From: Luteitalea sp.
Lineage (GTDB): Bacteria > Acidobacteriota > Vicinamibacteria > Vicinamibacterales > Vicinamibacteraceae
Direction: 5' to 3'
DNA: 32,647 nt
Assembly (NCBI GenBank): GCA_009377605.1
Contig: WHTT01000073.1
Location: 1 to 32,647 of the forward strand
Within the stretch, counting starts at the first letter, position 1. The number at the start of each line of letters is the position of its first letter. The notes beneath the pieces are model-generated. The model searched no databases, was not told the origin of the DNA, and saw only the letters and a list, made by a program, of their open reading frames with translations. This document shows positions 7,553 to 22,301 of this stretch, piece by piece. The position numbers and the translations under genes were made by a program.

Positions 7553-7613
7553 TGTTATAACAGCCACAAAACCAGATATTCACTATATGTGATTGTTATG
7601 TCATAATGTGTCC
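7553..7613 (+). promoter_or_regulatory. Putative autoregulated, leaderless promoter of the defence island
   Basis: Two TGTTAT-led palindromes are seen: TGTTATAACA (7553-7562, perfect) and TTATG-T-CATAA (7596-7606). The second overlaps CATAAT (7602-7607), a good -10 box placed 6 bp before GTG 7614. No Shine-Dalgarno is present, so a leaderless message starting at the GTG is plausible. The AT-rich stretch contrasts with the GC-rich surroundings. Binding by the HTH of the first gene is inference. Confidence 0.5.
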
Positions 7614-10600
7614 GTGGAGCTCAGCCCAATCCTGGAGGTGCGCCGCCGGCTCGGCCTGACGCAGGCCGCCCTAGCCGAGTTACTTGGCGTTTCGTTCGTC
7701 ACTGTCAATCGATGGGAGCGCGGCAAGTCACGACCCTCGGACCAAGTACTCCGGCGAATCCGGACGCTCGAAGCTGAACGGACTTCTCACGCGGCCGCGC
7801 GAACAAGCACCCCGGCTTCAAGCGGTTCGAAAGCTGTGGCCGCTAGGACCGACTTTCTCGCGAACCCCGAACACGTCCGCCTAATCGCCGAAGTCGAACG
7901 CCTCTCGTACGGCTACGTCGCCAGCCCCACATTCGCCACCGAGACATCCCGCATCGAGCCGCTTCCGCACCAGCGTATCGCGGTCTACGAGCACATGCTC
8001 ACGCAGCCGCGCCTTCGGTTCTTGCTGGCGGACGACGCGGGCGCGGGCAAGACGATCATGTCAGGACTCTACATTCGAGAGATGCAGGCGCGTCGTCTCA
8101 TCCGCCGGGTCCTCATCGTTCCGCCCGCCGGTCTCATCGGGAACTGGGAGAGAGAGCTCCGGACACTGTTCGGTCTGCGCTTTCGCATCGTTCGCGGCGC
8201 AGACGCAAAATCCGAAAATCCCTTCGCCCGCGATGCCGGCAGCTATGTGATCTGCAGCGTTGACACGCTCGCGGGCACGTCGATGTTCGCCAAGCTCCAG
8301 AGTCGTGAGGTCGATCCGTACGACGTGGTCATCTTCGACGAGGCACACAAGCTCGCGGCCAGTCGTGACGCGGATCTGAGCGTTCGAAAAACTGACCGAT
8401 ACCAGCTCGCTGAAGCACTCGCGGGGGTCATGGCAACCGACCCTGAATGGGCGCTCCCGTGGTCGGCCAATCATCTGCTTCTGCTCACCGCCACGCCTCA
8501 TATGGGGAAGGACTTCCCGTACTACGCGCTATGGCGATTGCTCGAACCGGAGGTTCTATCGACCGAGGACGCGTTTCGGGCCTTCCCCGCCGAAGAACGG
8601 CGAAAGCGCTTCATCCGGCGAACCAAAGAGGAGATGGTGCGGTTCGATGGCACACCCATATACCCGCAACGGATCTCCGACACGCTTGGCTTCGACCTGA
8701 CCTCTGGCCCGGCTGGCGAGCAAGAGCTTTACGAGCGGACGACGGCGTACATGCGGACGTTCTACAACCGCGCCGGCATCCTCAATCCATCGGCCGCTCG
8801 GCTGGCACTCGGCGTCTTCCAGCGCCGCCTGGCGAGCTCGACGTACGCAGTTCTGCGATCGATGGAGCGCCGTCTCGTTCGGCTAGACGAGGTCATCGAA
8901 CGCGTGCGTGAGGGTCGCCTGACGCCGCAGGAGTTGCACGCAGCGCAGCTGCGACTGCGCGACCCCTTCGAGGATTCCACGGCGGATGAGGAAGCCGCCG
9001 TGGACGGTCGAGAGAGTCACGAGCAGGACGAGGACCGGCTGCTTCAGGTCATCAGAACTACTTCGCTCGTGGATTTGGAAACCGAGCGCCGAGAAGTGCT
9101 GGGCGTGATTGAGCTTGCACGAGGCGTGCTCGCGGCCAGCCACGAGTCCAAGTTCGACGTGCTGCGAGAGCTACTGCTCAAACCGGATTACCGGGGAGAG
9201 AAGCTCATTGTCTTCACGGAGCATCGGGACACGCTGGAGTGGGTGGGACAGCGTCTGGAGGGCATGGGATTCACCGACAGGATTGCAGCCATTCATGGCG
9301 GCATGGATTTCAGAGAGCGAGAGGCCGAAGTTGAACGCTTCCGGAACCCCTCAGCAGACGGTGGCGCGCAATACCTGCTGGCAACAGATGCTGCCGGTGA
9401 AGGGATCAACCTGCAGTTCTGCTGGCTGATGGTGAACTACGACGTGCCGTGGAACCCGGCGCGACTCGAACAGCGTATGGGCCGGATCCACCGTTATGGG
9501 CAGGAGCACGACCCGGTTGTCATCGTCAACCTCGTCGCGAACAACACGCGGGAAGGGCTGGTCATCGGCACGTTGCTTCGGAAGCTCGACACGATTCGGC
9601 GGGAGCTGAAGTCCGACAAAGTCTTCGATGTCGTCGGGCGTATCTTCGAAAACGTCTCGATCGCTTCGTACCTGGCTGACGCGCTGGTCCAGGACGATGG
9701 TGCCGACGCGGCCCGGCGGCTCGAGGGTCGCCTCACGCGCGACCAAGTGGACGCCATTCGCCAGCGCGAGCGCCTGCTCTTCGGAGACGGCGGAGACGTC
9801 AAGCGGGAGCTACCTCGCTTGCGCGTGGTCACAGAGCGGGAGACGCTGCGCAGGCTTCTACCCGGGTACGTGCGCCAGTTCGTGGAAGATGCCGCCAAAT
9901 CGCTTCGGCTTCGCGTGGATGGCGATCTTGATGGCGCCTTTTCTCTTCGCCCCACAGAGCGCGGCGCACTGAACCCTCTGTGGGAAGTCCTCGAGAGTTA
10001 CCCGCCCGAGGCACGAGGTCGGCTGACCGTGTACCGCCCCAAGGCGGACGACGCAGTGTTCGTGCATCCGGGAGAGCCGGTCTTTGAACGACTGCGTTCG
10101 CTGGTCCTGGAGCGTTTCGCTGTGGATGCGCGTCGGGGTGCTGCATTCGTGGATCCCACCGTCTCCGAGCCGTATCTGGTCTTTCTGGCGGAGTTGTCGC
10201 TTGTCCGCCGACCTGGCGAACCCATTCACAACAGACTCATCGCAGTGAAAGTGGACGTGCAGGGTCACTTCGACCCCTGCCCCGTCGAACATTTCATGCT
10301 TCTGCGCGGATGCGATCGATTTCCCACAGAGTTCGTCAGCCTTGCCTCTCGGGCCGCCGAGCTCGAGGTGCTGACGGACGAGTTCCTAAGGATGCAGGTG
10401 GCCGAACCGCTGCTTGCCGAACGCCGGCGGGCGTTGCGTCAGACATTGCCTCAGCGAGAAGACTTCCTCATCCGGGGGTTCGACTACCAGTCTGCCGAAC
10501 TGGCGGCATCCCGGCAGCGGCTCACCGAAAAGGTCCAACAGGGTCAGTCGGCTGCAAAGGGTGCGCTTGAACGCGTGAAGGATCAGCAGCGCGCTCTCGA

Positions 10601-11450
10601 GAAACGAAAGGCCGCTGCGGTCGCGTCCCTTCACACCGAGCCCGATGAGCTATCGATCGGCCAGGTCTCGGTGATCGCCCGGGCGCTGATCGTGCCTTCC
10701 TCCGTTGAAGCCGAACGCGAACGCTACGACGCGAACGTGGAAGGGATCGCGATGCAGGTGGCTCGCGCCTTCGAGGAAGCGGCGGGCTCGAACGTGCGGG
10801 ACGTCTCCACTCCGCCGAAAGCCCGCGCCGCTGGACTAACCGACTACCCCGGGTTCGATCTGCTCGCGATCTACCCCTCGGGAGAACGCCGGGCCATTGA
10901 AGTGAAGGGCCGAGCGGGCACAGGCGACGTTGAGGTGTCCTACAACGAGTGGGCACGCGCCTGCAATCTTCGACAGGAATACTGGCTGCACGTAGTCTTC
11001 CACTCGGCATCTCCGCGCCCGCGGCTCGTTCGCGTCCAGGACCCCTTTGCCAAACTGCTCGTCAAGTCGCGCGGGGTCATCGTCAACGACCGCGACATCA
11101 TTGAGGTTGGCGAAAGCGGGGGGGCGGAACCGGCGGCTGGAACTCCGTTGCCCGAGCTCTTGCGCCCGTTGTTGTGGGACCACTCGTTCGAAGACCTTCG
11201 ATGGCCAACGCACCGGGATCTCGTGATCGGCCGCGTGCTGCAGAGTGGCGGCAGCGACGCCGTCAGCTGGCTACGGAAAACCGTGGGCGACATTGAACTG
11301 GCCGGGTGGATTCGCAAACGTGACGGCCGCGGACTGGACGCTCGCCAGCTACGGTTCTGGCAGACCGTGTTGGATCTCCCTGAGAGGGACGCCAATCGCT
11401 GGGTGAAGCAGGCGACGGAAAACCCTTGGGGCGCGAGAACTGGATTTTGA
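7614..11450 (+). CDS. XRE-HTH / SNF2-type helicase / DUF3883 defence protein
   Basis: About 1278 residues. Residues 1-55 form an XRE-type helix-turn-helix (RRRLGLTQAALAELLGVSF then WERGKSRPS). A superfamily 2 SNF2-like helicase follows: Walker A DDAGAGKT near 143, DEAH at 242-245, LLTATPH, TDAAGEGIN, and motif VI RMGRIHRYGQ at 621-630. A Lys/Arg/Gln-rich coiled coil near 970-1005 leads to a DUF3883 domain with GFD (Asp 1082) and EVKG (Glu 1096, Lys 1098), a PD-(D/E)xK nuclease-like arrangement. Related helicases sit in DISARM and in helicase-methylase-ATPase systems, acting on invading DNA. Starts at TTG 7593 and GTG 7608 are also open. GTG 7614 is chosen for its position 6 bp after a -10-like box. 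The HTH fusion is unusual and suggests self-regulation or sequence-specific recruitment. Confidence 0.85.
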   Translation: MELSPILEVRRRLGLTQAALAELLGVSFVTVNRWERGKSRPSDQVLRRIRTLEAERTSHAAARTSTPASSGSKAVAARTDFLANPEHVRLIAEVERLSYGYVASPTFATETSRIEPLPHQRIAVYEHMLTQPRLRFLLADDAGAGKTIMSGLYIREMQARRLIRRVLIVPPAGLIGNWERELRTLFGLRFRIVRGADAKSENPFARDAGSYVICSVDTLAGTSMFAKLQSREVDPYDVVIFDEAHKLAASRDADLSVRKTDRYQLAEALAGVMATDPEWALPWSANHLLLLTATPHMGKDFPYYALWRLLEPEVLSTEDAFRAFPAEERRKRFIRRTKEEMVRFDGTPIYPQRISDTLGFDLTSGPAGEQELYERTTAYMRTFYNRAGILNPSAARLALGVFQRRLASSTYAVLRSMERRLVRLDEVIERVREGRLTPQELHAAQLRLRDPFEDSTADEEAAVDGRESHEQDEDRLLQVIRTTSLVDLETERREVLGVIELARGVLAASHESKFDVLRELLLKPDYRGEKLIVFTEHRDTLEWVGQRLEGMGFTDRIAAIHGGMDFREREAEVERFRNPSADGGAQYLLATDAAGEGINLQFCWLMVNYDVPWNPARLEQRMGRIHRYGQEHDPVVIVNLVANNTREGLVIGTLLRKLDTIRRELKSDKVFDVVGRIFENVSIASYLADALVQDDGADAARRLEGRLTRDQVDAIRQRERLLFGDGGDVKRELPRLRVVTERETLRRLLPGYVRQFVEDAAKSLRLRVDGDLDGAFSLRPTERGALNPLWEVLESYPPEARGRLTVYRPKADDAVFVHPGEPVFERLRSLVLERFAVDARRGAAFVDPTVSEPYLVFLAELSLVRRPGEPIHNRLIAVKVDVQGHFDPCPVEHFMLLRGCDRFPTEFVSLASRAAELEVLTDEFLRMQVAEPLLAERRRALRQTLPQREDFLIRGFDYQSAELAASRQRLTEKVQQGQSAAKGALERVKDQQRALEKRKAAAVASLHTEPDELSIGQVSVIARALIVPSSVEAERERYDANVEGIAMQVARAFEEAAGSNVRDVSTPPKARAAGLTDYPGFDLLAIYPSGERRAIEVKGRAGTGDVEVSYNEWARACNLRQEYWLHVVFHSASPRPRLVRVQDPFAKLLVKSRGVIVNDRDIIEVGESGGAEPAAGTPLPELLRPLLWDHSFEDLRWPTHRDLVIGRVLQSGGSDAVSWLRKTVGDIELAGWIRKRDGRGLDARQLRFWQTVLDLPERDANRWVKQATENPWGARTGF

Positions 11451-11477
11451 GCTTGGGATTTGTCTCCCAAAAACACT

Positions 11478-11566
11478 GAGACCGGCCTCGCAGCCGGTCT
11501 CGCAGCCTGCTTCCGAAGAAGCAGGGGGGATAAATTAGTAACAGGATACCGCCAAGTTTGGTTCCT
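11478..11566 (+). other. Tandem stem-loops between helicase and NYN genes
   Basis: Stem 1: GAGACCGGC (11478-11486) pairs perfectly with GCCGGTCTC (11493-11501), 6-nt loop. Stem 2: CCTGCTTC (11506-11513) pairs perfectly with GAAGCAGG (11518-11525), CGAA loop. A G-run and an AT-rich piece follow, then a weaker dyad (CAGGATACC ... GGTTCCTG) at about 11541-11566. There is no clear U-tract, so a simple rho-independent terminator is not convincing. Attenuation, RNA processing or a small structured RNA are alternatives. Confidence 0.6.
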
Positions 11567-11618
11567 GTCAAAGGTCTCGCGTCGGTCCAGGGAGGTCGGT
11601 GAAGACGGAGCTGGGTTC

Positions 11619-12239
11619 GTGGCAAACGTCAACGTGTACGTCGACGGCTTCAACCTCTACTACGGCGGGCTCAAGCGCACGCCGTACAAATGGCTGGACC
11701 TTGCGAAGCTCTGTCAGATCATGCTGCCGCAGGACGTCGTGCAACACATCTACTACTACACCGCCCGCGTCAGCGCTCGCCCGCACAATCCGTCAGCGCC
11801 AATGGACCAGCAGGTTTACCTTCGTGCGCTACGAACGATTCCGAATCTCTCAGTCACGTACGGGCACTTCATGACTCATTCGGTTCGCATGGCGCTCTCA
11901 CGCGTGATACCGCCTCAGCAGGTGTGGGTCGACAAGACCGAAGAAAAGGGCTCAGACGTGAATCTCGCGACACATCTCGTGCGCGACGCGTTCCAAAAAC
12001 GCTTCGAGTTGGCTGTACTCGTCACGAACGATTCCGACCTCGCAGAACCAGTGAGGATAGTGACTCAAGAACTGGCCCTGCCCGTCGGCATCTTGAATCC
12101 TCACCAGTATCACAGCCAAGTCTTGAAACGGCTCGCGACGTTCGTGAAGCGGATTCGACAGTCAGCCCTGCACGCAAGCCAGTTTCCGGTGACACTCGCC
12201 GACGAGAAAGGTATTTTTCACAAGCCATCTTCGTGGTAG
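11619..12239 (+). CDS. NYN-domain (LabA/DUF88-like) PIN-fold nuclease
   Basis: A 206-residue protein from GTG 11619, which has GGAG 8 bp upstream. The frame is open further upstream, but that part is the stem-loop region and has no domain character. The NYN signature is complete: YVDGFN (Asp 9), EEKGSDVNLATHL (Asp 113), LVTNDSDL (Asp 138, Asp 140). These acidic residues form the metal-binding RNase centre of the NYN/PIN-like fold. Family knowledge: RNA (sometimes DNA) cleavage, often in defence loci. It stands between the helicase and the SIR2 cassette on the same strand. Role here is unproven: effector nuclease or processing enzyme. Confidence 0.85.
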   Translation: MANVNVYVDGFNLYYGGLKRTPYKWLDLAKLCQIMLPQDVVQHIYYYTARVSARPHNPSAPMDQQVYLRALRTIPNLSVTYGHFMTHSVRMALSRVIPPQQVWVDKTEEKGSDVNLATHLVRDAFQKRFELAVLVTNDSDLAEPVRIVTQELALPVGILNPHQYHSQVLKRLATFVKRIRQSALHASQFPVTLADEKGIFHKPSSW

Positions 12240-12270
12240 CGATTGCTGAGGCCGAGCCAATGCCAGAGAT

Positions 12271-12283
12271 GCTTGGCCCAAGC
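12271..12283. promoter_or_regulatory. Perfect 6-1-6 dyad upstream of the winged-helix gene
   Basis: GCTTGG-C-CCAAGC is a perfect palindrome with a single central base, too tight to form an RNA hairpin, so a protein-binding site is more likely than a terminator. It lies 80 bp before the winged-helix start in the 124-bp gap after the NYN gene. Nothing else is evident in that gap. Confidence 0.35.
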
Positions 12284-12363
12284 GAATGAAGTCACATCCG
12301 CGTTGTTATTCAAGCGGCCGTACGCGAGGCGGCAGGGTAAGGATGATCGTTTCTGGAGGCTAC

Positions 12364-12696
12364 ATGACGGCAGAAGGTCGCATTGAACAATTGTTGGGTT
12401 GTCTTGTTCAAGTAATCGGGCGCACGGCAATACCGGAAGATCGCGTGCGCGAGATTGTCGGCACGGCGTCAAAACAAGTTCGTGCTTTCAACCTCTGTGA
12501 TGGCACCAAGACGCAAACAGACATCCGTCAGAAGGTCGGTCTTGATGCCGGAAACTTCAGCCGCACTGCCCGACGATGGGTCGAACAAGGTGTCATGTTT
12601 GAGATTGGCGACGCCGGCAACTCAAAGCTCCTTCACATCTACCCGCTCAGCAAATCTCAGAAGACAAAGGCAGCCCGAACTCGGAGGAAGAGGTGA
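12364..12696 (+). CDS. Small winged-helix DNA-binding protein
   Basis: A 110-residue protein. The middle reads as a winged helix: CDGTKTQTDIRQKVGLDAGN, then FSRTARRWVEQGVMFEIG, i.e. helix-turn-recognition helix followed by a wing, like MarR/ArsR-type domains used on marker-type DNA sites. It ends in a very basic tail (KTKAARTRRKR). ATG 12364 is preceded by GGAGG only 4 bp away. ATG 12343 is an alternative. Its TGA overlaps the GTG start of the SIR2 gene (GTGA). I do not recognise a named family. Likely roles are a repressor of the downstream toxic genes or a DNA-targeting subunit of the SIR2 protein. Confidence 0.65.
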   Translation: MTAEGRIEQLLGCLVQVIGRTAIPEDRVREIVGTASKQVRAFNLCDGTKTQTDIRQKVGLDAGNFSRTARRWVEQGVMFEIGDAGNSKLLHIYPLSKSQKTKAARTRRKR

Positions 12697-13736
12697 AGCT
12701 GGCGTCGGGCTCCCTGCAGACCGCCCTCATTCTTGGCGCCGGGGCAACGCGTGGAGCGATCGGCCACGTTTTACTGAACAGGAAGCGTCTGAAGCCGCCT
12801 TTAAATGGAGACTTTTTCGACGTCGCGGCCACGTACGCACGAGCGAAAGGCTCCGGCACCAGGAAGCGCGTCGACCATCTCCTGGCGGTGGGAGCGGAAC
12901 TCGCCCTGGGCCGAAACCCGACTCTTGAAGAAGCGTTCAGCCTTCTCTACATCGCTAAGGATTTCCCGGAGATCTATAAGTCTGGACCTGGCCCAAAACC
13001 GGAGCCGGGAATAAGTTCCGAGATCGACGACTTTCTCGCGCTGCTGTTCGGCGTCCTCAACGAGGTCGACCGCAACTCGAATGGTCATACTGGATATGAC
13101 CGTCTCACTCGATCGCTTGAGTCTGGAGACTCAGTCCTCACGCTGAACTACGACACCTGTCTCGATTCAGCACTCAAACGGGCCGGGTGGGATCCAGCGT
13201 CGGGCTACGACCTGATCGGTGGCAAAGGCAAATGCAAGTGGGCTGGGCCCAACGCAGCAGTCTCCAACGCTAAAGGAGTCAAACTTCTGAAGCTTCACGG
13301 GTCGATGAACTGGTGGGTTCGTGGTTCGTCGGCCGACCTGACGAAAGTATTCTCGAAAAAGCCGACCCTGATCACGGGGCCCCGCAGGAACGGTCGTCAT
13401 GGGCTTCTGCGGCAGATTGTTCCTCCGATTCACGGTAAATTCTTCTCGCATCCTCACTGGGCCAAGCTGTGGAAGACCGCGTTTCAGGCACTCTGCACTG
13501 CTGACAGGATTGTTGTGATTGGATGCTCTATCGTCGACACCGACTTTCACCTCCAGGGCTTTCTGCGTCGCATGGTTAAGACGCGGAAGTCGTTACAGCG
13601 CTTTCGCGAAGCAGTTTTGGTGGATCGATCTGTCAAGGTCCGCCGCAAGTGGAAGAAAGTCTTGCGCGGCGCGGTTTCCAGCTCTCAAGAGTTCCCAAGT
13701 TTTGAGGCGTTTCTGGAGAAGGGTGCACGCACATGA
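12693..13736 (+). CDS. SIR2-like domain protein (putative NADase effector)
   Basis: A 347-residue protein with a full SIR2-type Rossmann pattern: ILGAGATR (15-20 core), LTLNYDTCLDSAL (Asn 152, Asp 154), KLLKLHGSMNWW (His 202) and VIGCSIVDTDFH (278-285). The Asn and His match the residues needed for NAD cleavage in defence SIR2 proteins such as ThsA and DSR types. No Zn-binding cysteine quartet of protein deacetylases is visible, which fits an NADase rather than a deacetylase. There is no extra effector or sensor domain, so activation must come from a partner. GTG start with GGAGG 5 bp upstream. It overlaps the genes on both sides by 4 bp. Expected outcome: NAD depletion and growth arrest of infected cells (inference). 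Confidence 0.85.
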   Translation: MKLASGSLQTALILGAGATRGAIGHVLLNRKRLKPPLNGDFFDVAATYARAKGSGTRKRVDHLLAVGAELALGRNPTLEEAFSLLYIAKDFPEIYKSGPGPKPEPGISSEIDDFLALLFGVLNEVDRNSNGHTGYDRLTRSLESGDSVLTLNYDTCLDSALKRAGWDPASGYDLIGGKGKCKWAGPNAAVSNAKGVKLLKLHGSMNWWVRGSSADLTKVFSKKPTLITGPRRNGRHGLLRQIVPPIHGKFFSHPHWAKLWKTAFQALCTADRIVVIGCSIVDTDFHLQGFLRRMVKTRKSLQRFREAVLVDRSVKVRRKWKKVLRGAVSSSQEFPSFEAFLEKGART

Positions 13737-13987
13737 CCGCTGAACAGATGGATAGAGGCATCAAGGCTCTGGAACGGATAGCCATGGCTTTGGCAGCCAT
13801 GTATGCCGAACAGCTGAAGGGCCTGGATCAACCTGCTAAGGCAAAACGCCTGAGTCACCTCGGCTTCTCCAACGTTCAGATCGCAAGTGCACTTGGCACA
13901 ACTGCGAACTCGGTCAATGTCTCTTTGCACAGAGCACGTAAACGACCGAAGGCATCTCAGAGATCGCGGCGGGAGAGGAAACAATGA
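13733..13987 (+). CDS. Small sigma-region-4-like HTH protein
   Basis: An 84-residue protein with an N-terminal helix (MDRGIKALERIAMALAAMYA), then HLGFSNVQIASALGTTANSV followed by NVSLHRARKR, the pattern of sigma-70 region 4 or LuxR-type HTH, and a basic tail (SQRSRRERKQ). There is no region 2, so it is not a sigma factor. It starts within the SIR2 stop (ATGA) and its own stop overlaps the methylase ATG (ATGA), so it is locked into the same translational chain. Possible jobs: transcriptional control of the methylase/effector balance, or DNA tethering of the SIR2 protein. Confidence 0.65.
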   Translation: MTAEQMDRGIKALERIAMALAAMYAEQLKGLDQPAKAKRLSHLGFSNVQIASALGTTANSVNVSLHRARKRPKASQRSRRERKQ

Positions 13988-16900
13988 CCAACCGTCGTCT
14001 CATCGAAGTCGCCTTCCCTCTCGAACAGGCGTCACTCGACTCGGTACACGAAAAGAACGTGCGCCACGGGCATATCTCGACCCTGCACATCTGGCCGGCG
14101 CGCCGGCCGCTGGCGGCCTGTCGGGCGGCGCTCATTGCCACGCTGCTGCCTGATCCCGGCACACCTGAGAAGCGGCGCGAGCTGTGCGAGCGCATCGGCG
14201 GGAAGATCGAGAAGGTCATCGAGAAGAAGAAGGGCCCAGGAAGCCGCGGCGAGGAGAAGATCGTCAAGAAGACGATTGGCGGCATCCTTCACTGGGGCCG
14301 CGAGACCGAGAACAAAGCTGACATCGACTTCTTCCGTCAAGAGATCCGGAAGGCGTTCGGCGGCCGTGCGCCGCGTGTGCTCGACCCATTCGCCGGCGGT
14401 GGCGCCATCCCCCTCGAGGCGATGCGCCTCGGGTGTGAGGTCACGGCCGTCGACATCAATCCGGTCGCCTGGTTCATCCTGAAGTGCACGCTCGAGTATC
14501 CGCAAAAGCTCGCCGGTCAGAAACGGCCGCTTCCGGACTTCGTTCGCTCGGACGCCGCCTTCATGGAGAGCTTCTTCAAGGCGCAGGGCTTCAAGGGGGC
14601 GATGCTCCGCAGCCAGCTGCGCAAGCTGGGGCTAAGTGACTCGAAGAAGAACGGGGCGCAGCAGCACTCGCTCAAGGACACGCAGACCGGAAAGGATGTC
14701 GACCTTTCAATCGAAGAACACACTCTGGAAGCAGATCTGGCCTGGCACGTCCGGGCGTGGGGCTGGTGGGTGCTGCGCGAGGCACGCCGCGAGCTGGCGC
14801 GCTACTACCCTGCCTACGCGGATTTCCAGCCAGTGAAGGACGTGGACGACTGGCGCCGACGGCACCCGGAGCAGGCACGACCGAGGCAGCTCGTCCCGAC
14901 TTTCGACGACGGAATACCCGACATCGATTCGCTGAACGCCGATTTCGGCGGCGACTACTTGGCCGACGGCCGCACTGCGCGCTGGGTAGCCAAGCCGGCG
15001 GTTGCCTACCTCTGGGCGCGGACCGTGAAGTGCAAAAACTGCCGCGCGACGATTCCCTTGTTGAAGACGCGTTGGCTAGCCAAGAAGGAGAAAAAGCGCG
15101 TCTTGCTTCACGTAGAACCGAACAGCGATAAAACCGGAGTCTCGTTCGGTATCGAGAATGACGTGCCAGTTGCCGGAGGCAACAACGCGCAGCGCCGCGA
15201 ACACGATAAGCGGCTTGGGCACGGAACAATGAGCCGCGCGGGTGCCTGGTGTCCGTGCTGCGGCAAACCCGGCACTGTAGCCATGGAACGCGAAGACCTT
15301 CGCACTGAGGCGTCGGCGCAGCGAATGGGTATCGCCTTGACCGCGGTCGTGATTGATGGGCCGAGCGGTAAGGAGTATAGGCTACCGACCGAGCTGGAAC
15401 TACGTCTTCCTCTGGTGCAGCCACGAGAGCTCGAGGAAACATTTCGGAGGCTTCCGTTTGGGATTCCGAACGAACCGTTTCCTGAAGGCGGGAGTCGCCA
15501 GACTGGTGGGTCGTCGTTTACTGCCTACGCTTACGGCAAGACAAGGTGGAGCACCGTATTTAGCAGTCGGCAATTGCTCTCCTTAGGGGCGTTCACGTAC
15601 TGGATCAGGAGCTCCCACGAGTCGGCCGCCAGCTTCGGGTACCCGACTGCCTGGACAGAAGCACTGCCTGCGTACCTGTATACGGCGCTTTCGCGTCTGG
15701 CTGATCGGAATAGTGAGTTCTGCACATGGCAACTTGGCGCGGAAAAGATTGGACATACATTCACACGCTTCGCGCTCCCGATAACATGGGACTTTGTCGA
15801 GGTCATGCCCTGGGCTGATTCCAGCGGCGGTTTCCTGCAAGCCGTCGATTGGGTAGCACAGGTAGCCGCACACCTTCTCGACATGGCAAGCGCACCACCG
15901 TCCCAGGTGGTATGCGGGTCCGCGATCAATGCTCGAGACAGCGGAGTGGATCTGATCATCACTGATCCGCCATACTACGATTCGATTCAGTACTCGGATC
16001 TGATGGACTTCTTCCTCGTGTGGCTACGGCGGACGCTGCATGGGTCTTCGAGCGAAATTGATCGCGTCTTGTTGGATCCGCTCGGACCCAAGTGGAATCA
16101 CGACCTCAATGACGGCGAGCTCATCGACGAAGCCAGCCGACACCTCGGAGACGCGGAACAATCACGCCGCGTCTATGAAGATGGAATGTCACGAGCTTTT
16201 AGGGCTTGCTTCGAAGCTCTCAACCCTAATGGCCGTCTTGTTGTCGTGTTCGCGAATAAACAGCCGGATGCCTGGGAAGCGCTGGTAGCGTCAATTACCC
16301 GAGCAGGCTTTTGTGTTGATGGCTCCTGGCCTATTCGGACAGAGCGTGCAGGCAGAATGCGTTCACTTGCATCGGCCGCCCTCGCTTCTTCGGTGTGGCT
16401 CATCTGTCGGAAGCGCGACGTCGCAGCGCGGCCTGGCTGGGACAATGTCGTTCTTGGCGAAATGCGCCGGACGATCAGCCAAGAGCTGCGAGAGTTTTGG
16501 GACGCCGGAATCCGGGGACCGGACTTCGTCTGGGCAGCCACTGGTCCTGCGCTTGAGGCGTACAGCAAGCACCCAGTGGTTAAGAAAGCGAACGACCCGG
16601 GCGAGACGATGTCAGTGTCAGAATTTCTGCGAGCTGTTCGCCGCATGGTTGTCGAGTTCGTCGTTGGCCGCGTCATCGGAGAGCTAACACATGGCCAGGC
16701 CGTAGTAGGCATCGAGGGCCTTACGGGCTTGGACGACGTAACGACCTACTACCTCCTTCACCGTCACGACTTCGGGATGAACGACGCACCGGCAGGCGCC
16801 TGCATTCTATATGCGCTCTCGTGCAATCTGTCGGAAGGCGATCTCGCGGATCGATACGCGATCCTCCTGCGCTCCGGCGGCGTTGAGCAGGGCGACGACG

Positions 16901-17304
16901 GAGAACCCGTCGAGGGAGACGCGGACGCCGAGGGCGATGTGACCGAAGGTTCTGGCAGTACGTTCAAGCTTCGACCGTGGAAGCAGCGCCGGCGTGCTGG
17001 ACTCGGGATGGCGACAGTGAACGCCTCCGTCACCGTGCCTCTCGTCGATATGGCGCATCACCTCATGCACCTCTGGATCGATGGTGACGTCCACAAAGTG
17101 AACGCGTACATCGACGAGCGCGGCCTCCGGCGAAGTGACACGTTCCGGCATGTCCTGCAGGCGTTGATCGAACTGGCGAAGGAGAGCAGCGACGAACGCT
17201 CTGTCCTCGAGCGCATTTCGAATCATCTTCAGGCCAGAGGTCAGGCACCGGCATCCCTTCGCGATGTCGGCTTGGGTGTAGCAGCGGTTGACGAACAGGA
17301 GTAG
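13984..17304 (+). CDS. DUF1156 adenine-specific DNA methyltransferase with Zn-ribbon
   Basis: A 1106-residue protein. The N-terminus IEVAFPLEQ, HEKNVRHGHISTLHIWPARRP is the DUF1156 signature. SAM-binding motif I is LDPFAGGGAIPLEA (134-145), followed by AVDINPVAWF. The catalytic DPPYYDSIQYSD is at 661-672, so target-recognition sequence is inserted between motifs I and IV. A Zn-ribbon (Cys 350/353 and Cys 423/426) lies in that insert. The C-terminal third continues with an acidic linker near 975-990. This matches the COG1743 adenine-methylase type with Zn-ribbon, predicted to modify host DNA. Length is in the usual range of about 900-1100. SD-like GGGAGAGGAA precedes the ATG. Stop is 2 bp before the DUF499 gene. 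Confidence 0.9.
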   Translation: MTNRRLIEVAFPLEQASLDSVHEKNVRHGHISTLHIWPARRPLAACRAALIATLLPDPGTPEKRRELCERIGGKIEKVIEKKKGPGSRGEEKIVKKTIGGILHWGRETENKADIDFFRQEIRKAFGGRAPRVLDPFAGGGAIPLEAMRLGCEVTAVDINPVAWFILKCTLEYPQKLAGQKRPLPDFVRSDAAFMESFFKAQGFKGAMLRSQLRKLGLSDSKKNGAQQHSLKDTQTGKDVDLSIEEHTLEADLAWHVRAWGWWVLREARRELARYYPAYADFQPVKDVDDWRRRHPEQARPRQLVPTFDDGIPDIDSLNADFGGDYLADGRTARWVAKPAVAYLWARTVKCKNCRATIPLLKTRWLAKKEKKRVLLHVEPNSDKTGVSFGIENDVPVAGGNNAQRREHDKRLGHGTMSRAGAWCPCCGKPGTVAMEREDLRTEASAQRMGIALTAVVIDGPSGKEYRLPTELELRLPLVQPRELEETFRRLPFGIPNEPFPEGGSRQTGGSSFTAYAYGKTRWSTVFSSRQLLSLGAFTYWIRSSHESAASFGYPTAWTEALPAYLYTALSRLADRNSEFCTWQLGAEKIGHTFTRFALPITWDFVEVMPWADSSGGFLQAVDWVAQVAAHLLDMASAPPSQVVCGSAINARDSGVDLIITDPPYYDSIQYSDLMDFFLVWLRRTLHGSSSEIDRVLLDPLGPKWNHDLNDGELIDEASRHLGDAEQSRRVYEDGMSRAFRACFEALNPNGRLVVVFANKQPDAWEALVASITRAGFCVDGSWPIRTERAGRMRSLASAALASSVWLICRKRDVAARPGWDNVVLGEMRRTISQELREFWDAGIRGPDFVWAATGPALEAYSKHPVVKKANDPGETMSVSEFLRAVRRMVVEFVVGRVIGELTHGQAVVGIEGLTGLDDVTTYYLLHRHDFGMNDAPAGACILYALSCNLSEGDLADRYAILLRSGGVEQGDDGEPVEGDADAEGDVTEGSGSTFKLRPWKQRRRAGLGMATVNASVTVPLVDMAHHLMHLWIDGDVHKVNAYIDERGLRRSDTFRHVLQALIELAKESSDERSVLERISNHLQARGQAPASLRDVGLGVAAVDEQE

Positions 17305-17306
17305 CG

Positions 17307-20300
17307 ATGAGCAAGCCGTCATGGAATCCCTGGCATCAGGTCGTTCAACTGCGCGAAGACCTTCGCACAGGAGAGCTGGCACTCAACGAATTCGCGGCCG
17401 ACATCTATGATGTCGCGCTCCGGAGCGGGAAGCGGCGCATCTACGAAGATCCAAAGGAGTTCTTCGCCCTCACCTACCCTACCTCTGCGCTTCTCGATCT
17501 CGCGCGAGACGTCGTCCGCCGCCTGGCAGGCAAGAATCAGAAAGCGGTCCGACAGCTCGAGCTCACCTACGGCGGCGGCAAGACGCACACGCTCATCACG
17601 TTGTTTCACCTCGTGACCGATCCAGCGTCGCTGCCGCAACTGCCGGCGGTCGACGAATTCAAAGCGCGGATCGACCTACCGCTGCCACCAACGCGGGTTG
17701 CCGTACTGCCTTTCGACAAATTCGATGCGGAGAAAGGGACCGAGGTCCGCGACCCGTCCGGTGACAGGCGGATGCTCCGGCAGCCCTGGAGCGCGCTCGC
17801 GTGGCAGCTCGCCGGCGCCGACGGCCTACGAATCCTGCACCCGGACGACAAACCGGAAGAACGGAGGACCGCACCCGCGGAGAACTTGCTGACGCTGCTA
17901 CTCGAGACGCCGCAGAAGGACGGGCGCTCCACCCTGATCCTGATGGACGAGGTGCTGATGTTCGCTCACGCGGCGGTCGACGCGGACCCAGCATGGCGCG
18001 AGCGTCTGAAGAACTTCTTCCAGGCGCTCACGCAGGCTGCAACCAAGGTCGACCGCTGCGCCATCGTCGCCTCGCTCCTCGCGACCGACGTCGCAAAGAA
18101 CGATGAGTTGGGCCGGGCGATCACCGACGAGCTGTACGCGATCTTCCGGCGCGAGCGAGAAGAAGGCGTGGAGCCCGTGAGCAAGAAGGATGTCGCAGAG
18201 GTACTGCGGCGCCGGTTCTTCACGCCGGAATCGCTCCAGACCAAGGAAGCGTTCCGGAAGCCGGTGATCGAGGCGCTGAACGGCATCGAAGTTCTTGACG
18301 ACGAAACAAAGAAATCGAGGAAAGACGAAGAAGTTCGCTTTGTGGCGAGCTACCCGTTCCATCCCGACCTCACCGAGGTGCTCTACGCGAAGTGGACGCA
18401 GCTCCAGGGCTTCCAACGCACGCGCGGCGTGCTGCGGACGTTCGCGCTGGCACTCCGCGAAGCGGAGAAGTGGGATACGTCTCCGGTCGTCGGCCCGAAC
18501 GTCTTTCTCGCGGCGCCGACCGAAGACGGTCTCTCTGAAGCCGCACGTGAGTTGACTCAGGTAGCGACGGTTGAGGAACACGAGGGCAAGAAGCAAGAGT
18601 GGTCATCGATTCTCGCAGGTGAGCTCGAAAAGGCTCGGCGCGTTCAACAGGAGTTGAGCGACTTACAGCATCGCGAGGTCGAACAGGCCGTGTTGGCGAC
18701 CTTCCTGCACTCGCAGCCCCCTGGTGCCCGCGCTCAACTCCGAGAACTGCTGGTTCTCGTGGGCGCAACCAGGCCTGACAAGATCACGTTGCAGAAGGCT
18801 CTTCGCGAGTGGTTCGACCGCTCCTGGTTCCTGGACGAAGCTGCAGACGCCGACACGAGAGCCACGAACGGCGTGAAGTCGCCGCCGGCTGTTTGGCGGT
18901 TGGGATCCCGTCCCAACCTGAAACAAATGCATGCAGACGCCGTCACGCGCGTCGCCGACCAGACAGTCGAAGAACACCTCCTTGGCGCCATTCGCAAGAA
19001 CAAGACACTAACCGCGACGGCCTCTCAGGCCGGTGCCCGTGTTCACAATCTGCCGGAAAGGCCGGGGATGGTGGATGACGATGGCCAGTTTCGGTATGTG
19101 GTGCTGGGACCATCGGCTGCATCAGAGTCGGGCAAGCCGAGCGCGGAAGCGAGGCGGTTCATCGAAGAGACGACCGCCGCCGACCGGCCACGCACGGAGC
19201 GGAACGCCATCGTGCTGGCAGTGCCTTCCAGAGAGGGCGTCTACATCGCGCGGACGGCCGTACGCGATTACCTCGGATGGCTGGCTGTGGACGACGCGCT
19301 CAAGAAAGAAGGGCACGAGCTTGATCTCGTACGCCAGCAGAATCTCGACTCCTACAGGAATGCGGCCTTGAAGCGCATCGGCGACGCCATTCAGCAGGCC
19401 TACTGCATTGTTGTCACGGTGTCTTCCGACAACGATGTGCAGGCTTTCCGCGTTCAAGTCTCCGATGCGCCGCTCTTCAATACGATCAAGGCGGATTCCC
19501 GCTCGCGCATCCAGGAGAGCGCAATTAGTCCGGACGCGGTACTGCCTGGCGGGCCGTACCAGCTCTGGCGAGACGACGAGGAATCTCGACCGGTTCGCGA
19601 TCTCGTCGGTGCATTTGCCAGATTTCCTCACCTGCCCAAGATGCTGAATCGTCAGGCGATCGTTGACACGATCATCCGAGGGTGCGAAGAGGGCTATTTC
19701 GTGGCGCGTCTCACTCGCCCCGACAAGTCCATTCAGACGTGGTGGCGGCAGGCGCCGCCTTCCGACGTGCTCGACGATCCCCAGCTTGATCTCGTGCTGC
19801 CCGACAAAGCCGAGCTTGTCAATCTGTCGCCCAACATTCTCCGGCCCGGCATGATCGATGATTTGTGGAGGATGCCACAGGTCACCGTTGCCACCATCCG
19901 GACGTTCTTCGACGGCGCCCATACGATTACCGTTTCTCGGGGAGGTTACGACGAGCCGATGCCGGTCCCCCGCGTGCTGGCCGACGTAGTCGATGGCGCC
20001 CTGCGCGCGGCGGTGAAAGAAGGATGGCTCTGGTTGACGTCAGGGCCGGCGAGTCTGCTTGGCGAAGATGTGCCGCCCGCGCTCGTTACCGCGGATACCG
20101 TGCTTCAGGCTCCGCCCGATCCGATCTCGCCGCTCGATCTCTTGCCGAACAGCCTCACCGACGCCTGGCAGAGTGGCAGAAGCGACGCGATGTCGGTAGC
20201 CGTCGCGCTCTCAAAGAAGGTGGGTGGAACCCTTCCTTGGCTCACGGTGCGCGAGGCCATTGACGCCGCCTTTCGCGCGCGGGTGCTGGATCGTGGCCCC

Positions 20301-20618
20301 GGCAGCGTCGACTGGCCGTGCGACTACTCCAACGCGTCGGCCGTTTCGATTGTCGTACCAGAGCCTGGCTCCGTTGCTGCTACGCTTCCGCCTGCAGCCG
20401 CCAGCGACACCCGAACCAGCGCTGCCACCGCACTCAAACCCAACCAGCTCCAGGATCTCGTCGACGTGCTCCCGGACTTAATCAAGATGACCGCGGGTCA
20501 CGAGCTAAGGTTCCGCTTGGCGGTCGAGATCAAAGGTAAGCAGCGCCCACACGACAAGCTGGTCGCTGCGGTCAATGAGCTGTTCAAAGACCTAGACGAC
20601 GAACTGCGGATTCAATAG
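17307..20618 (+). CDS. DUF499 AAA+ ATPase
   Basis: A 1103-residue protein. Walker A is TYGGGKTHTLI (Lys 92), preceded by a DUF499-type N-terminus (WNPWHQVVQLREDL, FFALTYPTSAL). Walker B is STLILMDEVLMFA (Asp 214, Glu 215). The long C-terminal half resembles other DUF499 proteins but has no motif I can assign. COG1483-type ATPases are strongly tied to DUF1156 methylases in predicted defence modules. The analogy to BREX/PglY-type P-loop proteins suggests a complex-forming motor or switch. ATG follows AGGAG and lies 2 bp after the methylase stop, so methylase and ATPase are one unit. Confidence 0.9.
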   Translation: MSKPSWNPWHQVVQLREDLRTGELALNEFAADIYDVALRSGKRRIYEDPKEFFALTYPTSALLDLARDVVRRLAGKNQKAVRQLELTYGGGKTHTLITLFHLVTDPASLPQLPAVDEFKARIDLPLPPTRVAVLPFDKFDAEKGTEVRDPSGDRRMLRQPWSALAWQLAGADGLRILHPDDKPEERRTAPAENLLTLLLETPQKDGRSTLILMDEVLMFAHAAVDADPAWRERLKNFFQALTQAATKVDRCAIVASLLATDVAKNDELGRAITDELYAIFRREREEGVEPVSKKDVAEVLRRRFFTPESLQTKEAFRKPVIEALNGIEVLDDETKKSRKDEEVRFVASYPFHPDLTEVLYAKWTQLQGFQRTRGVLRTFALALREAEKWDTSPVVGPNVFLAAPTEDGLSEAARELTQVATVEEHEGKKQEWSSILAGELEKARRVQQELSDLQHREVEQAVLATFLHSQPPGARAQLRELLVLVGATRPDKITLQKALREWFDRSWFLDEAADADTRATNGVKSPPAVWRLGSRPNLKQMHADAVTRVADQTVEEHLLGAIRKNKTLTATASQAGARVHNLPERPGMVDDDGQFRYVVLGPSAASESGKPSAEARRFIEETTAADRPRTERNAIVLAVPSREGVYIARTAVRDYLGWLAVDDALKKEGHELDLVRQQNLDSYRNAALKRIGDAIQQAYCIVVTVSSDNDVQAFRVQVSDAPLFNTIKADSRSRIQESAISPDAVLPGGPYQLWRDDEESRPVRDLVGAFARFPHLPKMLNRQAIVDTIIRGCEEGYFVARLTRPDKSIQTWWRQAPPSDVLDDPQLDLVLPDKAELVNLSPNILRPGMIDDLWRMPQVTVATIRTFFDGAHTITVSRGGYDEPMPVPRVLADVVDGALRAAVKEGWLWLTSGPASLLGEDVPPALVTADTVLQAPPDPISPLDLLPNSLTDAWQSGRSDAMSVAVALSKKVGGTLPWLTVREAIDAAFRARVLDRGPGSVDWPCDYSNASAVSIVVPEPGSVAATLPPAAASDTRTSAATALKPNQLQDLVDVLPDLIKMTAGHELRFRLAVEIKGKQRPHDKLVAAVNELFKDLDDELRIQ

Positions 20619-20710
20619 CGAGACCGGAACCGGTGATGCAGAGGTGGCCAAGATCTTCATCGGTGGGTCTCGGCAACTTTCGCGCCCAAACGCCGACGCG
20701 GAGCTATCCG

Positions 20711-21586
20711 ATGAAGCGTGATCCTGTTGAAGAGCATAAACACACCGCGACCGTCGAGGGCGTGTTAGCGCAGCTTGAGGGCGACTACTTCTATGACTAT
20801 GCGGCCTTTACCGGCAGCCTGCGGGAGTACGTTGTCCGAGCCCTCGAGGCCCGATACAAGTCAGAGCCGAACGAGCTGCACAAGCGCGCCTTTCTCCTGA
20901 ATGTCTACCGCGAGGAGTACACGGCGTACGAAGACCTTGGGGCGTTCATGGATGCGTTCCTTTCCATCAAAGGCGATCCAACGATCCTGCCGCTCCATCG
21001 GATGATTTCCTACGGCGCTGGCCAGGTGAAGCTCGGATCCGTCCTCGAACGACACCAGATCGATACCGGTGACGACCTCTATAACGGGCTCGGTCTGGCC
21101 GAGTGGATGCCCGCGAGCTGGTCGGAGCACCATCCGAAGATCGACCTGCAGAAGGTCCTTCGTAGAGCCTGTTATTTCCTCGTGGAGGATTGCTGGCCGG
21201 GACAGCGGGCGACAGGGGTCAGGGCGTTCAACAAGATCAAGCACGGGCTGGTGCTTGTGCCCGATGGGCGACCGTATGCGTCGAAGCTTCCGAGCGCGCC
21301 GGCCATCATCTTCGCGACCCACCCGAAGGATCCCGCATCGAAGGAGACTCCGGTCAGCATCTTGGCAATTCCGACGGAGCCAGAGAAGGTTGAAGAGCGG
21401 CTGAGGATCGTTCACTTCACGCAGTTCATGCTACGGATGTTCGCGATGCTGTACGTCTTGAAGCGATATCCGGCCGCCATCGGCGGACGGGGCCTTAAGG
21501 CGGACGCGTCGGTGTTCGGCTCGGAGCGGATGGTCGACGTCTTGGAATTCATGCGGAATTCATCTGAGACACCTTGGTCAAAGTAG
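20711..21586 (+). CDS. Defence-island protein of unknown family, possible HEPN-like
   Basis: A 291-residue protein from ATG 20711, with GGAG 7 bp upstream. A GTG at 20633 is in frame but adds low-complexity sequence. It is mostly helical. The segment RAFNKIKHG (Arg 171, His 178) looks like the R-x(4-6)-H site of HEPN ribonucleases, in the N-K-x-K-H-G style, directly followed by a strand (LVLVPDG). The N-terminal half has EGDYFYDYAAFTGSLREYVV. I cannot name the family. It sits 92 bp after the ATPase and 40 bp before a clearer HEPN gene, so the two may form a pair. Alternative: a structural partner with no catalysis. Confidence 0.6.
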   Translation: MKRDPVEEHKHTATVEGVLAQLEGDYFYDYAAFTGSLREYVVRALEARYKSEPNELHKRAFLLNVYREEYTAYEDLGAFMDAFLSIKGDPTILPLHRMISYGAGQVKLGSVLERHQIDTGDDLYNGLGLAEWMPASWSEHHPKIDLQKVLRRACYFLVEDCWPGQRATGVRAFNKIKHGLVLVPDGRPYASKLPSAPAIIFATHPKDPASKETPVSILAIPTEPEKVEERLRIVHFTQFMLRMFAMLYVLKRYPAAIGGRGLKADASVFGSERMVDVLEFMRNSSETPWSK

Positions 21587-21626
21587 GGAACTGATCACGC
21601 GACTTTTCTTGCGAGGTACGACCGAC

Positions 21627-22301
21627 ATGGCGCTACGACTGCGGGACGACTCTGACTTCAAGCCCTTATTGGACGCCCTCGCGGACGAACTCGTGATGGC
21701 CGCGATCTATTTCAAGCTGTATCAAGACTTGATCGAAGCGAAGAACGGCGAGTACGAGCGCGAGATCAGCCAATCGTGGACGTTCTGGTCACTGACATTG
21801 AGGTCGCTCATCGATGCGACCGTCTACCGGATCTGCAAGGCCTACGATCACAATAGGGATTCGTTGAATCTGAAGAACCTTCTCGAACTCGTGCGTGAGC
21901 GTCAGGACGTTTTCGATCGAGACACATTTCGCGAGCGGCTGAAAGACAATCCGTATGTCGACTCTCTCGCCAAAGACACCCGACTTCCTGACGCCGCACA
22001 GCTGGAGGCGGACCTGGAATTCGTGCAGGTAAAATCGAATCCCCTGGTCAAACGGCTGGTGACGTGGCGCGATAAGTTCTACGCGCACCGGGACCCGGCG
22101 CACGCGCTGGATCCGACCACCTTCGACCCATTGTTGGTGAGCGACGTGGAGACGTTGGTCAAAGAGGGCATGCGGATCATCAACTACTACAGCTCCCTTT
22201 ACGCCGCAACGACGCACTCGACCCAGATGGTCGGCCACGACGATTACCTGTCGGTCCTCAAGGCGGTGCGAAAGCGGTTGGAGCGATACGAGGCCGGGTG
22301 A
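21627..22301 (+). CDS. AbiU2-type HEPN domain protein
   Basis: A 224-residue all-alpha protein from ATG 21627, with GAGG 10 bp upstream. The C-terminal motif TWRDKFYAHRD (Arg 148, His 154, R-x5-H) and the upstream helix WSLTLRSLIDATVYRICKAYD match the AbiU2-like HEPN group. These are known or predicted metal-independent RNases of abortive-infection and toxin systems. It is the last gene of the island, followed by about 115 bp without a gene before a TTGACA promoter. No antitoxin (e.g. MNT nucleotidyltransferase) is adjacent, so its control may lie in the preceding protein or the larger complex. Confidence 0.75.
   Translation: MALRLRDDSDFKPLLDALADELVMAAIYFKLYQDLIEAKNGEYEREISQSWTFWSLTLRSLIDATVYRICKAYDHNRDSLNLKNLLELVRERQDVFDRDTFRERLKDNPYVDSLAKDTRLPDAAQLEADLEFVQVKSNPLVKRLVTWRDKFYAHRDPAHALDPTTFDPLLVSDVETLVKEGMRIINYYSSLYAATTHSTQMVGHDDYLSVLKAVRKRLERYEAG

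Follow-up and report, generated by a model that had tools for sequence, protein, structure and literature searches.

The hmaA gene and its locus

The analysis concerns a window of 32,647 nucleotides, i.e., the whole stretch of DNA that was analysed, which is contig WHTT01000073.1 of Luteitalea sp. (assembly GCA_009377605.1), and in particular the gene at positions 7614–11450. Judged by its sequence and its partner genes, the encoded protein is HmaA, the helicase-nuclease of a Hma (Type-1 BREX-related) system. HmaA, HmaB (DUF1156) and HmaC (DUF499) are encoded in one locus on the same strand, spanning 7614–20618. HmaA carries an XRE domain at its N-terminus, and the finding that is new here is a predicted palindromic operator at the own promoter of most XRE-HmaA genes.

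The open reading frame (ORF) of hmaA starts with GTG 7614, is open throughout and encodes 1278 amino acids. It comprises the following elements:

7614..11450, + strand: hmaA-like gene encoding an XRE domain, a SNF2 helicase, a RapA-like middle region, a PD-(D/E)xK nuclease and DUF6922 (PADLOC HmaA, E 1e-154, covering residues 80–1145 and starting with profile position 69 at residue 80)
7629..7763, + strand: XRE helix-turn-helix (HTH) domain, residues 6–50, with the recognition helix SFVTVNRWERGK (Pfam HTH_3 at residues 7–49, E 7e-12)
7953..9500, + strand: SNF2 helicase core, residues 114–629, with the motifs DDAGAGKT, DEAH, TATPH and GRIHRYGQ intact (Pfam ResIII/SNF2/Helicase_C and alignment)
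9819..10706, + strand: RapA-like middle region, residues about 736–1031 (match to the C-terminal part of RapA, Z 10.3, 248 residues)
11160..11288, + strand: DUF6922 match, residues 1183–1225, within a C-terminal extension about 114 amino acids long (Pfam; clear alignment only with the window's nearest relatives L021, L031, L033 and L042)

The N-terminal XRE domain and the complete helicase core had been claimed by the original prediction, made from the sequence alone, and both hold. The intact motifs also agree with its reading of the protein as a putative translocase. An alignment-free model of residues 1–329, which had a predicted local distance difference test (pLDDT) score of 41 overall, was poor past residue 60 and was used for the HTH bundle alone, shows residues 1–60 as a helical bundle with a mean pLDDT of 73–88. 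DUF6922 had not been noticed before, and the extension bearing it is limited to the window's nearest relatives. The label "DISARM-like" had to be given up and identity with DrmD was rejected: DrmD of DISARM is a sequence-related SNF2 helicase, yet the match to its NCBIfam profile reaches 339.5 bits and stays below the curated cut-off of 610, and the partner genes are those of HmaB and HmaC.

Distribution of the XRE domain among HmaA proteins

Relatives with 48–65% identity match the protein from residue 4–16 onward, thereby including the XRE domain, while those with 33–39% identity match only from about residue 75–90. In a FastTree tree of the helicase part, built from nonredundant rows, 84 rows (73 with and 11 without XRE) separate with full support from 6 canonical HmaA proteins, and no fewer than five changes of the XRE state fall on well supported branches. 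XRE members are found in more than 15 phyla, among them Pseudomonadota, Bacillota, Acidobacteriota, Chloroflexota, Myxococcota, Planctomycetota and Armatimonadota. The two archaeal members of the clade (L082, L088) have neither XRE domain nor operator.

The original prediction had treated the combination of XRE, SNF2 and DUF3883 as an oddity, which it is not, since the architecture survey shows a multi-phylum clade. Its background statement that such helicases usually have no XRE domain is right for canonical HmaA and wrong for this clade. That the XRE domain is routine here takes away the supposed rarity of the arrangement but not the mechanism proposed for it. In the viral collection no XRE-HmaA was found on viral contigs, and the two canonical relatives that matched did so from residue 76–80. 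Similarly, no close XRE-HmaA was found in plasmid records, where the best matches start at residue 43 or later with 30–38% identity. The idea that a separate XRE gene supplies the function in XRE-less members was rejected, as none was found on the same strand nearby; the canonical locus L037 does have one XRE-like ORF, encoded by the opposite strand.

A palindromic operator upstream of XRE-HmaA genes

The upstream regions of the 73 nonredundant XRE-HmaA genes were searched for a shared operator. In one half of the loci the dyad TATA-N8-TATA was found de novo as the most frequent one (11/37), and it recurs in the other half in 13/36 loci compared to 0.32 expected from shuffled sequences. The extended palindrome TATARCAnnTGYTATA (class 1) is present at 12 or more of its 14 positions upstream of 49 of the 73 genes, with 0.03 expected from shuffles. 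Across 1.16 Mb of loci, the 200 bp preceding an XRE gene hold 51 operator sites, compared with only two elsewhere. Furthermore, the exact operator occurs in 15 of 20 whole genomes, exactly once in each, and wherever it could be compared with gene coordinates it sits at the xre-hmaA promoter. By chance, a palindrome of 14 defined positions would be expected about 0.06 times per strand per 4.3 Mb.

A sigma70-like promoter lies near the operator in 30 of the 49 operator loci. In 22 of these 30 the operator precedes the −35 box, with its centre 11–17 bp before the box in 20 cases, and another 7 have it overlapping the −10 box. The latter position would fit repression and the former either activation or repression, and the direction of regulation may differ between lineages. 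As a further observation, many class-1 promoters (L047, L055, L057, L075, L079, L116 and others) carry a CACGCGA-like element after the TTGACA box, which is perhaps a weak second half-site; CACGCG is present in 7 of the 49 class-1 promoters, and the maximum in shuffled sequences was also 7.

The XRE domain as the probable reader of the operator

The presence of the operator varies with the sequence of the recognition helix: it is found in 47 of 54 loci with a helix of the type [FY][AP][ST] and in 2 of 19 with other helices (Fisher p 3e-9). In phylogeny-aware comparisons, five of eight pairs point in the same direction and none in the opposite one. Among new, nonduplicate loci, a site matching at least 12 of 14 positions is present in three of four with an FA[ST] helix and in none of three others. 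Moreover, no XRE-less member of the clade has an operator at this threshold, and on starred branches 4.4 of 5 pairs show a joint loss of operator and XRE domain, the reverse never being seen.

Genomes with two XRE-HmaA loci provide an internal comparison. Both G425 (L119/L122) and G426 (L120/L123) have an FAT helix with a class-1 operator at one locus and a PLT helix with another site at the second, and such paralogues, differing in helix and site, display a pattern that would be expected of insulated autoregulators. Members with [PT][IL]T helices (L027, L028, L119, L121, L123) have another site in common, one half of which is TGATAG (L123: CTATCACATGATAG). The site CTATCAnnTGATAG is perfect in L123 and present as half-sites in L027, L028, L119 and L121, which is suggestive of a second operator class from too few loci. 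Three independent lines, namely the covariation of helix and operator, the missing site in XRE-less members and the divergence in both of the paralogues in G425 and G426, make it very probable that the XRE domain itself reads the operator. The autoregulation suggested by the original prediction thereby gains strong comparative evidence, in the form of a conserved own-promoter operator that is matched to the recognition helix.

The promoter of the window and its putative operator

The recognition helix in the window is of the type FVT, and its upstream region has no consensus operator. The following elements were found instead:

7579..7607, + strand: sigma70-like promoter TTCACT-17-CATAAT with an extended −10 TG (promoter scan, 1 found vs. 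0.1 expected)
7557..7568, + strand: left arm of the putative operator, ATAACAGCCACA, overlapping the family half-site TATAACA at 7556–7562 (inverted pair, conservation)
7588..7599, + strand: right arm of the putative operator, TGTGATTGTTAT, in the −35/−10 spacer (inverted pair, conservation)

The predicted transcription start is near GTG 7614, so that the transcript may be leaderless. The arms form an inverted pair of 12 bp with two mismatches, one arm on each side of the −35 box. The 94%-identical L039, whose sequence farther upstream is barely alignable, preserves the two arms as well as the distance between them, and each of the two genomes contains a single copy of the inverted pair. No operator common to the five-member clade of the window (window, L021, L031, L032, L033) was found, sharing being restricted to the window and L032/L039. 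It is plausible that the window's subclade has switched both helix and operator and that the inverted pair is a re-coded operator.

The C-terminal nuclease domain

The C-terminal part of the protein contains the predicted nuclease:

10725..11120, + strand: PD-(D/E)xK nuclease domain with D1082 (10857–10859), E1096 (10899–10901) and K1098 (10905–10907) (Pfam NOV_C, the DUF3883-type domain, at residues 1043–1134, E 8e-13; alignment, AlphaFold2, structure matching)

The arrangement GFD(x13)EVKG named by the original prediction is confirmed and is not a chance occurrence, with GFD at residues 1080–1082 and EVKG at 1096–1099. None of the residues D1082, E1096, K1098, N1111 and E1112 varies among the relatives whose sequence reaches this region, which holds for 66/66 members with XRE, 11/11 without it and 12/12 canonical HmaA proteins. 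An AlphaFold2 model of residues 650–1278, based on a 37-sequence alignment, has a mean pLDDT of 84 and about 90 across most of the nuclease domain. Residues 1032–1142 are modelled as a helix, a strand, a strand ending at GFD, a strand with EVK, a helix and two further strands, placing D1082 on or beside one core strand and E1096 and K1098 on the next.

In structure matching with VIA-align, the best matches of this unit are archaeal Hjc resolvases (AfHjc: Z 11.6, root-mean-square deviation 2.9, 112 residues), followed by the SPARDA nuclease (10.8), RecU and other PD-(D/E)xK enzymes, and the approximately 250 residues before it match RapA. In a Foldseek search with the C-terminal model RapA gave the only confident hits, with PvuII next and weak. 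The model thus supports a PD-(D/E)xK nuclease fold nearest to Hjc resolvases, with a predicted catalytic function. Structure prediction, as called for by the original prediction, returned a nuclease fold with Asp, Glu and Lys on or beside adjoining core strands.

Genes embedded in and adjoining the Hma locus

Downstream of hmaA the locus continues as follows:

11619..12239, + strand: cargo gene for a NYN-domain protein, Hma-embedded candidate HEC-09 (PADLOC HEC-09, E 6e-41, residues 56–259 of the ORF at 11460; Pfam NYN)
12286..12696, + strand: cargo gene for a 136-amino-acid protein without family match (profile searches)
12693..13736, + strand: cargo gene for a SIR2-like protein, a possible NAD-consuming effector (SIR2_2, E 2e-7; SIR2 models)
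13733..13987, + strand: gene for an 84-amino-acid, sigma70 region-4-like HTH protein, ahead of hmaB (Sigma70_r4_2, E 4e-6)
13984..17304, + strand: hmaB, DUF1156 methyltransferase with a DPPY motif at 661 (PADLOC HmaB, E 9e-112)
17307..20618, + strand: hmaC, DUF499 ATPase with the Walker A motif GGGKT (PADLOC HmaC, E 5e-75)
20633..21586, + strand: gene for a 317-amino-acid protein without convincing family match, close 3' of hmaC (profile searches)
21609..22301, + strand: gene for an AbiU2 HEPN protein with the motif RDKFYAH, adjoining the gene of the 317-amino-acid protein (HEPN_AbiU2, E 4e-37)

All genes from hmaA to the AbiU2 gene are on one strand, and most of them overlap or nearly touch. 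The locus is flanked by metabolic genes, i.e., for a pyrroloquinoline quinone (PQQ)-dependent dehydrogenase, a sugar-isomerase-like protein and an epimerase. The NYN gene belongs to HEC-09 by its profile match and its place between hmaA and hmaB. The listed TTG start of its ORF (11460–12239) is probably wrong: similarity to HEC-09 begins near 11625, and GTG 11619 is the likely start. The gap between hmaA and this gene contains two adjacent GC-rich hairpins at 11476–11530 (GAGACCGGC-CTCGCA-GCCGGTCTC and CCTGCTTC-CGAA-GAAGCAGG). The region folds better than shuffled sequences (z −2.5), is present as a single copy in the genome and is a possible attenuator.

Across loci having a downstream hmaB, 42 of 61 hold at least one gene between hmaA and hmaB. 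The intervening families include Argonaute, SIR2, CBASS cyclase, PARIS-, Septu- and Gabija-type ATPases, AbiEii, TIR and Schlafen.

HmaA as a putative transcription factor of its own operon

As a summary, XRE-HmaA is best read as a transcription factor of its own operon, embedded cargo included, whose XRE domain binds the operator at its own promoter, and a probability of roughly 0.8 is assigned to this reading on comparative sequence evidence. The domain would bind as a dimer, and HmaA would set its own level and that of HEC-09/NYN, the SIR2-like protein, the methyltransferase and the ATPase. To judge from their spacing, this control would extend to the downstream genes, which are closely packed on the same strand.

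Several points weigh against this reading. The consensus operator is missing from the window and from L021, L031, L032 and L033, the four relatives closest to it. The pattern in IUPAC code was drawn up by eye with the sequences in view, even if the dyad itself emerged from a de novo search, and the phylogeny-corrected sign tests of helix versus operator count as suggestive, not as strong, evidence (median p 0.06). The comparison of the two halves and the new nonduplicate loci support the pattern, but these loci are few, and most loci come from metagenome-assembled genomes. For the window itself, the site rests on one close relative, L039, and the inverted repeat alone is not significant, as the author estimates that chance would yield about 0.2 of them in a stretch of 200 bp.

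The operator might belong to another regulator of the host or of a mobile element, with the XRE domain serving another purpose, such as helping to recognise invading DNA or a further Hma protein. An architectural role is common for HTH domains of defence proteins, and the variable presence of the operator, which is absent from 24 of the 73 XRE members, would agree with this explanation. However, the finding of just one exact site in each of 15 genomes, placed at the XRE-HmaA promoter, together with its covariation with the recognition helix, its loss along with the XRE domain and the divergence of paralogues within one genome, makes this explanation quite improbable. It is likewise conceivable that the ordinary Hma system of the window's lineage has a decayed operator and an XRE domain that no longer regulates, as the upstream regions of this clade have no consensus and no obvious common site. 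This appears unlikely given that the XRE domain is intact, that its recognition helix changed in the same lineage, and that the inverted pair, unique in both genomes, and the promoter are kept in L039 while the sequence farther upstream can hardly be aligned.

The original prediction had also proposed that the protein binds a specific site, translocates and cleaves. Binding is now expected at a conserved operator at the own promoter; as a targeting device, by which HmaA would bind sites on invading DNA before translocating and cutting, the XRE domain is a highly improbable explanation and was rejected as far as its main role is concerned. In principle, an HTH domain fused to a translocase-nuclease might bring about loading of the enzyme at sites, and its specificity is conserved across phyla. 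However, the 14-position palindrome is too rare for this purpose, its exact form occurring once per genome and almost exclusively at the own promoter, and canonical HmaA and several XRE-less lineages manage without XRE.

Autoregulation through the XRE domain could extend to a release model, which is tentative and on balance doubtful: resting HmaA would occupy its single operator, the helicase-nuclease would be drawn onto invading DNA, and the emptied operator would allow the synthesis of more HmaA and of the embedded back-up effectors. Sensor, repressor and effector would thereby be united in one protein and infection would induce the operon. Little is known of how BREX-related defence operons are silenced and activated. 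If HmaA does control its own operon, foreign cargo, including known defence genes of such diverse kinds as Argonaute, SIR2, CBASS cyclase, PARIS-like ATPase, Schlafen and AbiE, would come under the helicase-nuclease of the host system. The operator is short and defined and its specificity classes track the recognition helix, making the proposed autoregulation directly testable.

Comparison with known systems

The name Hma, for helicase-methylase-ATPase, was given by the authors of PADLOC (PMC8565338), and the system corresponds to the Type-1 BREX-related (BR) system in the main text of PMC12839542. That text describes the helicase as Tudor, SNF2, inactive restriction endonuclease (REase), alpha/beta and active PD-(D/E)xK domains in this order, reports the active C-terminal nuclease in 79% of Type-1 BR taxa and cites antiphage activity of HmaA. 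The window shares with it a SNF2 HmaA with a C-terminal PD-(D/E)xK nuclease, a DUF1156 methyltransferase and a DUF499 ATPase. However, the place of the N-terminal Tudor domain is occupied here by XRE, a variant feature that still allows the assignment as HmaA, and is accompanied by a predicted operator at the own promoter. An XRE domain on a Hma helicase is not mentioned in the searchable main text of PMC8565338, PMC12839542 and PMC12111858; the term XRE is absent from the text of PMC12839542, whose supplementary data were outside the search and may contain such a remark. Genes lying between Hma genes were described as Hma-embedded candidates (PMC12111858), to which the NYN gene belongs as HEC-09, but in the window this slot is downstream of a promoter apparently controlled by the Hma helicase itself.

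The arrangement would resemble a C protein of a restriction system fused to its nuclease. The rare PvuII-like C-REase fusions are active both as C protein and as nuclease (PMC3850674). A C protein activates when scarce and represses when abundant; the window's arms flank the −35 box, and both operator placements are seen among relatives. In one of them, CR.NsoJS138I, a transcription-factor HTH is likewise fused ahead of a restriction nuclease and acts on its own promoter. However, these are Type II, PvuII-like enzymes, with five fusions in that study, whereas XRE-HmaA is a predicted translocase-nuclease of a BREX-related system, represented by 73 loci that span more than 15 phyla and having another operator. 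Autoregulation of defence operons via promoter repeats is also known from the BrxR/CapW WYL regulators (PMC9122601) and from RptR (PMC12255303), which are encoded by separate regulator genes and are not part of an effector. The regulators known for defence operons, i.e., BrxR/CapW, RptR and C proteins, are thus mostly separate genes, whereas in XRE-HmaA systems the effector itself is apparently the transcription factor.

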